Shown here piece by piece: positions 8,623 through 43,017 of a stretch of DNA of 64,000 nucleotides. A program made the position numbers and the translations under genes. The DNA is taken from assembly GCA_001873625.1 (NCBI GenBank), contig MNZN01000003.1, forward strand, positions 1 through 64,000, written 5' to 3'. The notes beneath the pieces were generated by a model that saw only the letters and a program-made list of their open reading frames with translations, had not been told where the DNA came from and made no database searches. Every line of letters starts with the position of its first letter. Position 1 is the first letter of the stretch. This DNA comes from Candidatus Saccharibacteria bacterium CG2_30_41_52. GTDB taxonomy: Bacteria; Patescibacteriota; Saccharimonadia; Saccharimonadales; Saccharimonadaceae.

Positions 8623-8751
8623 TTGGTGCCCTGCCACCCGTCGATTCCTTTGGAATCGCGGTCGGCCCTGACTCAGTCGGTGACGTTCGTCATCCGGCTT
8701 CCGTCCTTGCGAACTGCAGACTTGCAGTTCTCACCGTTAAACGATGAAACC
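8623..8751 (-). repeat. tRNA-associated structured element (copy E): partial tRNA-Glu 5' copy plus conserved core
   Basis: GGTTTCATCGTTTAACGG (cf. tRNA-Glu GGTCTCATCGTCTAACGG) followed by TGAGAACTGCAAGTCTGCAGTTCGCAAGGACGGAAGCCGGATGACGAACGTCACCGACTGAG, shared with copies at 34.8 and 42.9 kb. Confidence 0.8.
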
Positions 8752-23370: not shown

Positions 23371-23477
23371 AGGGCCAGGAGGGAATTAGTCACCTGTAAT
23401 TTTCTTTGAAAATTCATTCGACCCCGCCTCAGACAACTTAATGGTTGTCGAGGTTTCAATTCCCTGCTGGATACATT
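23371..23477 (-). repeat. tRNA-associated structured element (copy L, downstream of tRNA-Lys)
   Basis: CCAGCAGGGAATTGAAACCTCGACAACC (antisense of tRNA-Lys 3' half) - GTTGTC - TGAGGCGGGGTCGAATGAATTTTCAAAGAAAATTACAGGTGAC - TAATTCCCTCCTGGCCC (sense tRNA-Lys 3' end). Confidence 0.85.
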
Positions 23478-23522
23478 CCAAATAAAAATGACTATCCTGA
23501 CGGATGGTCATTTTTATTTGGA
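23477..23522 (-). terminator. Terminator-like palindrome anchored on tRNA-Lys CCA
   Basis: tccaaataaaaatgactatcctgacggatggtcatttttatttgga. Confidence 0.8.
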
Positions 23523-33082: not shown

Positions 33083-33222
33083 GTAAATAACAGAGATCGG
33101 TCACGTTCCGCAACCCCGCAAGTCAGTCAAATAAATATAATTCATTTGTAACATTGCCTTGCGCAGTGTAGACTTGCGCTGCTCATCCGCTACCTCGCAG
33201 GTTCAATCTCATCAAACATCCC
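33083..33222 (-). repeat. tRNA-associated structured element (copy H, downstream of tRNA-His)
   Basis: Antisense-like TGAGATTGAACCTGC; GGTAGCGGA - TGAGCAGCGCAAGTCTACACTGCGCAAGG...CTTGCGGGGTTGCGGAACGTGAC - CGATCTCTGTTATT (degenerate tRNA-His 3' end). Confidence 0.75.
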
Positions 33223-33616: not shown

Positions 33617-33770
33617 TACGCGTCGAAAATCGAACTTTCATCGTAGCGATTCGCTGAACAGCGAAGAACGGATGAGAGTTCGTGAAGCGACGGGCAATAA
33701 AAATCAGCTTGCTTATTTTTGTAACCGAGCGGAAATAAGGAGGATTTATCCGACTGCTTTCTCTCCGCTC
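33614..33770 (+). repeat. tRNA-associated element (copy G, divergent core, downstream of tRNA-Gly)
   Basis: TCGAAAATCGAACTTTCATCGT (antisense tRNA-Gly 3' half) ... CGGATGAGAGTTCG - [75-nt insert] - TTTCTCTCCGC (sense tRNA-Gly 3' half split in T-loop). Confidence 0.75.
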
Positions 33771-34269: not shown

Positions 34270-34286
34270 GGTACGCCCTGGTAGCT
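34270..34286 (+). repeat. Exact 17-nt duplicate of the tRNA-Arg(TCT) 5' region
   Basis: ggtacgccctggtagct here and at 34601..34617. Confidence 0.9.
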
Positions 34287-34352
34287 TCCTGTCATTCGAC
34301 AGGACCATGTCGGATGACATGGCAGTGGAAATCAAGTATAGTTTTCAGTGAG

Positions 34353-34643
34353 ATGTATTACGTATATTTCTTAAGAATGAATAATAGTCAGATATATACT
34401 GGTTCAACCAAAGATCTCAAATCACGAATGAGATTACACGAATGCGGAAACGTAACAACCACCAGTAAATATCTGCCCGTTATACTGATAGGATATGAAT
34501 CATATATTCTAAAATCAGATGCACAGCGCAGAGAAAGATATCTTAAAACTACCGAAGGTAAGCGATTATTTAGGCAACAGTTTAGGGATATCCTGAACAC
34601 GGTACGCCCTGGTAGCTCAGTGGATAGAGCAGAGGACTTCTAA
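34353..34643 (+). CDS. GIY-YIG endonuclease family protein (UPF0213-like) running into tRNA-Arg
   Basis: MYYVYFLRMNNSQIYTGSTKDLKSRMRLHECGNVTTTSKYLPVILIGYESY...RRERYLKTTEGKRLFRQQF; stop codon lies in tRNA-Arg anticodon loop. Confidence 0.85.
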   Translation: MYYVYFLRMNNSQIYTGSTKDLKSRMRLHECGNVTTTSKYLPVILIGYESYILKSDAQRRERYLKTTEGKRLFRQQFRDILNTVRPGSSVDRAEDF

Positions 34644-34681
34644 GCCTAAGGTCGTTGGTTCAATTCCAACCCAGGGTACCA
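34606..34681 (+). tRNA. tRNA-Arg (anticodon TCT), CCA encoded
   Basis: GCCCTGGTAGCTCAGTGGATAGAGCAGAGGACTTCTAAGCCTAAGGTCGTTGGTTCAATTCCAACCCAGGGTACCA; anticodon stem has outer and inner mismatches. Confidence 0.88.
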
Positions 34682-34722
34682 AAATAAAATAACTAACCCG
34701 CAGGGCTAGTTATTTTATTTTG
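34679..34722 (+). terminator. Terminator-like palindrome anchored on tRNA-Arg(TCT) CCA
   Basis: ccaaaataaaataactaacccgcagggctagttattttattttg. Confidence 0.85.
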
Positions 34723-34894
34723 ACACCCAGGGATTGGATCGACCAACGACTTTTTGTGAAACAAAAAATGTCGTTGGTGAGCAGTGCAAGTCTGCACTGC
34801 GCAAGGCCGGAGCCTGGATTGCGAACGCGACCAAGCGAGGCGGGGTAGATGTATTTTCTGGAAGAAAATAACCGTGACCAATTCCAACCCAGTG
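34721..34894 (+). repeat. tRNA-associated structured element (copy R, downstream of tRNA-Arg(TCT))
   Basis: CACCCAGGGATTGGATCGACCAACGAC (antisense) ... GTCGTTGG - TGAGCAGTGCAAGTC...ACCGTGAC - CAATTCCAACCCAG (sense tRNA-Arg 3' end). Confidence 0.9.
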
Positions 34895-42814: not shown

Positions 42815-43017
42815 TAGGCGCTGACGGACCCAACCTTCGCCATGGTCGAAGGTGAGAACCGCCACGTCGGCGGTTCGCAAGGCCGGAAGCCGGATGACGA
42901 ACGTCACCGACTGAGGCGGGGTCGCGAAAAATTAGGAACTAATTTTATCGTGACTGAGTCCTTTATCTATAAGATTAAAAAAACGAACAAAGTGAGACGA
43001 TGCCCTTTCACCCCAAC
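42812..43017 (+). repeat. tRNA-associated structured element (copy P, downstream of tRNA-Pro)
   Basis: TGGTAGGCGCTGACGGACCCAACCTTCGCC (antisense tRNA-Pro 3' half) - GGTCGAAGG - TGAGAACCGCCACGTCGGCGGTTCGCAAGGCCGGAAGCCGGATGACGAACGTCACCGACTGAGGCGGGGTC...ATCGTGAC - TGAGTCCTTT...CCCTTTCACCCC. Confidence 0.88.

Follow-up and report, generated by a model that had tools for sequence, protein, structure and literature searches.

The window analysed here is a 64,000-nt stretch of DNA from Candidatus Saccharibacteria bacterium CG2_30_41_52, whose 825-kb genome is referred to as G000. Downstream of its tRNA-Arg(TCT) gene lies a composite arrangement of partial tRNA copies, one of which is interrupted by a structured insert of 101 nt (34778-34878). 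The terms "core" and "element A" are used for this insert and its relatives. The locus comprises the following features:

34270..34286, plus strand: 5' tRNA-Arg fragment and leader (GGTACGCCCTGGTAGCT), the left edge of a separate GIY-YIG insertion (direct repeat D3)
34353..34643, plus strand: GIY-YIG nuclease ORF with its stop codon within tRNA-Arg, a separate element (Pfam PF01541, E=1.3e-13)
34606..34681, plus strand: intact tRNA-Arg(TCT) (ARAGORN, Rfam RF00005)
34679..34722, plus strand: T1, a terminator-like palindrome from the tRNA CCA (34679) to TTTTG (inverted repeat I1, sequence)
34724..34750, minus strand: antisense of the tRNA-Arg 3' half, continuous with T1 as a fold-back repeat (repeat map, sequence)
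34742-34778: hairpin CCAACGAC..GTCGTTGG (sequence, repeat map)
34751..34769, plus strand: T2, a small hairpin loop bridging the antisense arm and the second sense copy (inverted repeat I4)
34770..34777, plus strand: broken tRNA copy, left part GTCGTTGG, i.e., the T-stem 5' strand ending in GG (sequence, split alignment)
34778..34878, plus strand: mobile core of 101 nt, TGAG...GTGAC, with three hairpins, replacing T54-T55 (covariance model, alignment, covariation)
34776-34878 (G000:C7): covariance-model match for the Arg core, 102.3 bits
34879..34892, plus strand: broken tRNA copy, right part CAATTCCAACCCAG, i.e., the T-loop remainder, the T-stem 3' strand and the start of the acceptor (direct repeat D5)

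The original prediction described a palindrome from the tRNA CCA to TTTTG, an imperfect antisense segment of the tRNA 3' half and a hairpin behind it. All three are present, the palindrome at 34679-34722 by sequence and repeat map, the antisense segment at 34724-34750 and the hairpin at 34742-34778. Repeat mapping further reveals that the sense and antisense 3' halves run uninterrupted through T1, forming arms of 40 nt that are 80% complementary. The second sense copy was also thought to be split exactly in the T-loop. It is indeed interrupted there by 101 nt, but T54-T55 are replaced and not merely separated, so that GG/TT/CAATT of the tRNA becomes GG/insert/CAATT in the copy (slashes mark the junctions). 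Both downstream arms, antisense and sense, fit tRNA-Arg(TCT) best, as none of the 36 other tRNAs of the genome gives a better match to either. The upstream 5' tRNA fragment, the intervening GIY-YIG ORF and a much larger genome-wide family of copies were absent from that earlier description.

A first covariance model was built from 17 copies found by inspecting tRNA loci. Covariance-model search yields 23 core copies in G000, 22 of which adjoin tRNA genes. Five of the 23 lie inside the window, at tRNA-Arg, -Pro, -Glu and -His and as a remnant at tRNA-Lys; besides the Arg core, these are:

42853..42954, plus strand: long core downstream of tRNA-Pro(TGG), T-loop site (121.6 bits)
8633..8733, minus strand: long core upstream of tRNA-Glu(TTC), D-loop site in a 5'-half copy (107.2 bits)
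33100..33185, minus strand: short core downstream of tRNA-His(GTG), T-loop site (40.8 bits)
23389..23502, minus strand: truncated core remnant and antisense arm downstream of tRNA-Lys(CTT) (35.0 bits)

Cores are ~86-104 nt long and fall into two size classes, a long one of ~101-104 nt and a short one of 85-90 nt, in which hairpin 3 has shrunk to GTCGC-N-GAA-N'-GTGAC. With the first model, element A was detected in 29 of 40 near-relative genomes. A second model detected copies in 98 of the 394 sampled genomes of the class (53 of 153 genera). In a phylum-wide sample every match fell into the same class, except for one contig-end fragment. A scan of public genomes with the core 3' end returned 43 loci, all informative titles of which name Saccharibacteria, and viral contigs contained no exact match to two core patterns. 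Rfam scans, at the gathering threshold and at E=10, gave only tRNA and chance miRNA matches and no family for the core, and no description of element A was found in the open-access literature, subscription literature lying outside the search. The finding withstood both checks that could have refuted it, as covariation is strong (see below) and Rfam assigns the core to no family.

The 173 distinct copies comprise a first set of 133 and an independent further set of 40. Within the first set, GG stands directly 5' of the core in 111 copies, the core starts with TGAG in 108 and ends with GTGAC in 118, and 113 have a tRNA on the same strand within 400 nt. By split alignment, exactly 2 nt of the neighbouring tRNA are replaced in 98 of 101 confident placements of this set. 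The independent set gave the same result in 27 of 27, one of them antisense-oriented at tRNA-Phe. Taken together, 125 of 128 placeable copies replace exactly 2 nt, normally after GG. The control for the split alignment is not clean, since T-arms are alike and 137 of 565 mismatched tRNAs also pass the score threshold; neither the 2-nt count nor the site classes depend on this threshold, both being derived from the matched tRNA.

Sense-strand sites are found in the T-loop (94), at the D-stem end or 26 hinge (17), in the anticodon arm (7) and in the D-loop (6), the favoured target being the T-loop sequence GG/TT/CRA (T54-T55). The acceptor and T stems received no insertion at all, whereas ~67 of 124 would be expected there from the positions of GG. 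The cores adjoin 26 different isoacceptors, nearly always beside an intact tRNA of the same kind. With two exceptions, T-loop insertions lie downstream of the intact tRNA, and those in the D and anticodon arms lie upstream of it; it is the shorter part of the tRNA that is duplicated. At L072, tRNA-Val(GAC) is complete apart from the core in its T-loop, and no intact copy adjoins it. Twenty-seven copies have no recognised same-strand tRNA within 400 nt; many of these border a tRNA fragment or the end of a contig. Three of the copies that lack a neighbouring tRNA (L049, L103, L118) have a common left flank, (A or G)CGGGTGACGT(T or G)CG..GGG(G), which is possibly another structured repeat that also serves as a target.

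Three consecutive hairpins fill the core from end to end and are flush with its termini TGAG...GTGAC. Their joints (TGAG, CGCAAGG, GGGGTCGC and GTGAC) are fully conserved, and compensatory changes amounting to strong covariation were found in 20 of 30 pairs in the first alignment and in 22 of 30 in the second. In hairpins 1 and 2 (P1/P2), 1.2% of cells are G.U and 0.6% are A.C; for tRNAs of these genomes, the corresponding values in the acceptor and T stems are 8-10% and <1%. G.U is thus about sevenfold rarer in the core hairpins than in these tRNA stems. Together with hairpin loops of only two or three bases, this depletion suggests selection as DNA hairpins rather than as RNA. One G.U pair in hairpin 3 is invariant (57 of 59) and can also be read as a sign of RNA function. 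The twister-sister ribozyme shares the string CGCAAGGCCG with the core, which is a lead only; Rfam gave no twister-sister match even at E=10.

The core itself is mobile. Two copies are nested inside other cores and follow the same 2-nt rule (GCGGG/GT/CGCGG at L102 and CGGGG/TC/GCGG at L083), and in G379 three elements share a single tRNA-Glu copy (L250). For 18 of 100 cores, the nearest relative lies in the same genome (shuffled mean 7.9), and for 8 of 100 it lies in another genome at the same tRNA (shuffled mean 3.5). The Pro core of G000, for example, has as its closest relative the Arg core of G004, and near-identical cores occur at unrelated tRNAs and in other species. As nearest relatives are usually found at other tRNAs and often in other genomes, the cores move between loci and between species, and the flanks belong to the local tRNA. 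The copy number in G000, the nesting and the near-identity of cores across unrelated tRNAs and species all speak for the mobile element that the original prediction had offered as one of two options. Element A constitutes a new mobile-element family whose members are small and non-autonomous.

The antisense arm is present in 69 of 74 T-loop copies and begins where T1 ends. Its departures from complementarity consist of G.U (117), A.C (71) and other combinations (209), with a bias for C-to-T and G-to-A. At positions where the tRNA and the broken copy differ, the arm agrees with the tRNA in 191 cases and with the broken copy in 25, the arm having been aligned to the tRNA, which biases this comparison towards the tRNA. 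The arm is missing from several copies and from the tRNA-Val insertion (L072), and in some copies, e.g., L098, a plain direct duplication takes the place of the fold-back. No uninterrupted second tRNA 3' half was found among 169 tRNA loci, implying that the duplication accompanies insertion. The arm looks like a decaying fold-back duplicate and not like a maintained guide or switch. It tracks the intact tRNA only through descent, decaying like neutral sequence in which G.U and A.C both accumulate. A role as a conserved RNA partner of the flanks is not supported. The "guide-like arms" of the original prediction do copy the target, as proposed, but no guiding role is supported. The other option, a switch acting on tRNA maturation, is not supported, given the neutral decay of the arm and its absence from several copies and from the tRNA-Val insertion.

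Element A is probably a small, non-coding and non-autonomous mobile element of three hairpins that inserts after GG in tRNA genes and replaces two bases. Insertion as such would kill the target tRNA. The element may move as folded single-stranded DNA, and its targets may be loops of tRNA genes exposed as single strands, perhaps on the non-template strand, for example during heavy transcription. A nuclease or recombinase would remove two bases after GG, the cut ends would lose these bases, and the folded element would be joined in. Repair would then copy the shorter part of the tRNA and often change strands at the terminator palindrome, which would give rise to the fold-back repeat and leave one good tRNA. 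The cell is proposed to survive because of this repair copying. Almost every observed locus has one intact tRNA and a partial second copy that contains the element; this copy derives from the shorter tRNA side and is usually joined through a fold-back repeat at T1. A categorically new system, in which a folded single-stranded DNA or ribozyme-like RNA of ~90 nt swaps two tRNA-loop bases and the insertion itself regenerates the tRNA via the fold-back copy, is conceivable but rather unlikely.

A mechanism at the RNA level, in which a structured RNA reverse-splices into the loops of tRNAs and the chimera is returned to the genome by reverse transcription or RNA-templated repair, is unlikely. In such a scheme the fold-back arm would stem from self-primed copying at the terminator hairpin, and the order tRNA-T1-antisense is exactly the product expected from self-priming of a terminated pre-tRNA. 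The targets are almost all tRNA loops or hinges, the hairpin-3 G.U is invariant, and the copy in the T-loop of tRNA-Val(GAC) resembles an intron. However, the depletion of G.U relative to tRNA stems is strong, reverse splicing does not predict the loss of two target bases, and Rfam finds no ribozyme or intron. Reverse transcriptase (RVT_1) is also absent from G000 with its 23 copies and from G004 with 13 copies at 99% completeness, and was rejected as a helper, as it is missing from these copy-rich genomes. The catalytic core of group I and group II introns is likewise not recognisable, given the negative Rfam result and a length of 86-104 nt, and excision of the core would leave the tRNA two bases short.

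Large serine recombinases cut with 2-nt overhangs, and the broken tRNA copies might be attR scars of elements carrying them, the core being part of the attachment site or a parasite of the recombinase. This origin is improbable. These recombinases occur in 14 of 16 genomes tested, often at a tRNA 3' end, and within ~2.5 kb of a core in five genomes. Ten ORFs of ~500-600 aa lie at tRNA 3' ends, nine of them overlapping the tRNA and several no more than 2.5 kb from cores, and the T-arm forms a natural inverted repeat around TT. However, cores also occupy D-loops, anticodon arms and other cores, which lack the T-arm dinucleotide. The two bases are conserved on neither side of the core, the junctions being GG/TG.. 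on the left and ..AC/C on the right with TT in neither, although attL and attR would carry the crossover dinucleotide at both ends. The recombinases are also found in the zero-copy genomes G014 and G023 and are absent from G353. As a helper for element A they were rejected: the co-location is suggestive, but both independently favour tRNA 3' ends. Like integrative elements at tRNA 3' halves, element A loci combine an intact tRNA with a displaced 3' half; unlike them, element A is ~100 nt long, has no integrase, also uses D- and anticodon arms and loses two bases. At L280-L291, serine recombinase genes converge on the 3' ends of tRNAs (Gln, Leu, Gly, Glu, Phe, Trp, Pro, Arg), usually overlapping them in antisense; these loci are tRNA-integrating serine-integrase elements of Saccharibacteria.

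A cis-acting RNA switch, in which the downstream arms and the core control tRNA-Arg maturation, is highly improbable: the antisense arm is complementary to the tRNA 3' half and the core covaries, but the same core lies by 26 isoacceptors, on either side of the tRNA and in copies of the D-, anticodon- or T-arm, does not track loci and is lacking at many tRNAs of the same genome, and the antisense arm decays neutrally and is missing in some copies. A constant link to one gene class in one position, together with conserved pairing to it, was not observed.

Element A resembles IS200/IS605 elements and their non-autonomous relatives, REP/RAYT and palindromic MITEs, which are likewise short, non-coding and bounded by hairpins and cause no target duplication. 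It also shares with IS200/IS605 relatives a short target word on the 5' side and an orientation fixed relative to the target. The three end-flush, covarying hairpins and the G.U depletion would fit subterminal hairpins read as single-stranded DNA, as in IS200/IS605 elements. In contrast to these elements, which insert without gain or loss of target sequence, element A loses exactly two target bases, hits tRNA loops, has three hairpins with conserved joints and is not consistently accompanied by a Y1 transposase with matching ends. Single-stranded DNA (HUH) transposition does not typically remove exactly 2 nt. Y1 transposase (PF01797) is absent from G004, G005, G016 and G021, and the ends of the Y1 loci examined are unlike the core, with different palindromes (GCAAGG..CCTTGC); its inconsistent presence and the mismatched ends led to its rejection as a helper. 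MITEs of the DDE type have terminal inverted repeats and target-site duplications, whereas the ends TGAGAAC... and ...GTGAC are not inverted repeats and 2 nt are replaced in 125 of 128 placed copies.

Yeast mitochondrial GC clusters are selfish hairpin elements of small size that turn over rapidly, merge and pass between species (PMC4478555). Element A is similar to these, to double-hairpin elements of mitochondria and to the Rickettsia palindromic elements in being a small selfish hairpin element, but it is unrelated in sequence, specific to tRNA loops and accompanied by restored tRNA copies. The rRNA genes of Saccharibacteria contain short (<=250 bp) insertions without ORFs, which do not belong to group I or II and lie at the tips or bases of stem-loops (PMC11270868). 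These share with element A the host group, the shortness, the lack of ORFs and of group I or II identity, and the placement at stem-loops. Across 15 LSU loci in 10 genomes, no element A was found in LSU rRNA, the two matches both lying outside the LSU, and identity with these insertions was rejected on the basis of this absence from the LSU genes of the copy-rich genomes searched. The 23S rRNA genes of G004 and of the window genome (L303, L304) are ~440-620 nt longer than the bacterial model, and the G004 LSU carries an insertion of ~356 nt at model position ~275-295 that is not element A. Element A behaves like small hairpin selfish elements, yet departs from each testable known kind in its defining features.

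No transposase, nuclease, other helper protein or autonomous parent element was identified for element A. GIY-YIG proteins were rejected as helpers, as small genes of this type are present in only some copy-bearing genomes and also in the copy-free G037. In the window (34270-34643), the GIY-YIG ORF sits between the 5' tRNA-Arg fragment and the intact tRNA-Arg. Similar ORFs precede tRNA-Trp in G004 (L133) and G030 (L128), where the intact gene lies behind a degenerate copy of this tRNA, and another precedes tRNA-Lys in G008 (L134). The ORF is likely a tRNA-directed homing gene that restores its target. Paired hairpins, e.g., CCATATCATCCGATATGG and CCGTGTCGAATGACGCGG, recur upstream of several tRNAs (L011, L001, L134; window 34287-34321), preceding GIY-YIG ORFs, and are possibly remnants of the GIY-YIG element.

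A second hairpin type, termed element B (...GGTTCG/G(C or T)GTAGCG-hairpin-GCGGAGGAGCG...GCGATA/TCC...), was observed in the T-loop of broken tRNA copies in the window (33620-33770, after tRNA-Gly) and at L007 (Tyr), L013 (Asp), L017 (Met), L216 and L190. It has the same T1-antisense-T2 scaffold as element A and occurs in either orientation.

Element A is widespread and apparently undescribed in Saccharibacteria; its insertion signature is unusually exact, and its targets are almost exclusively tRNA loops. It explains antisense tRNA repeats and tRNA fragments that would otherwise confuse annotation. With its fixed ends, fixed target and 2-nt swap, it offers a concrete system in which to seek a new recombination enzyme, and it shows how, despite being attacked, most tRNAs of a small genome stay functional.
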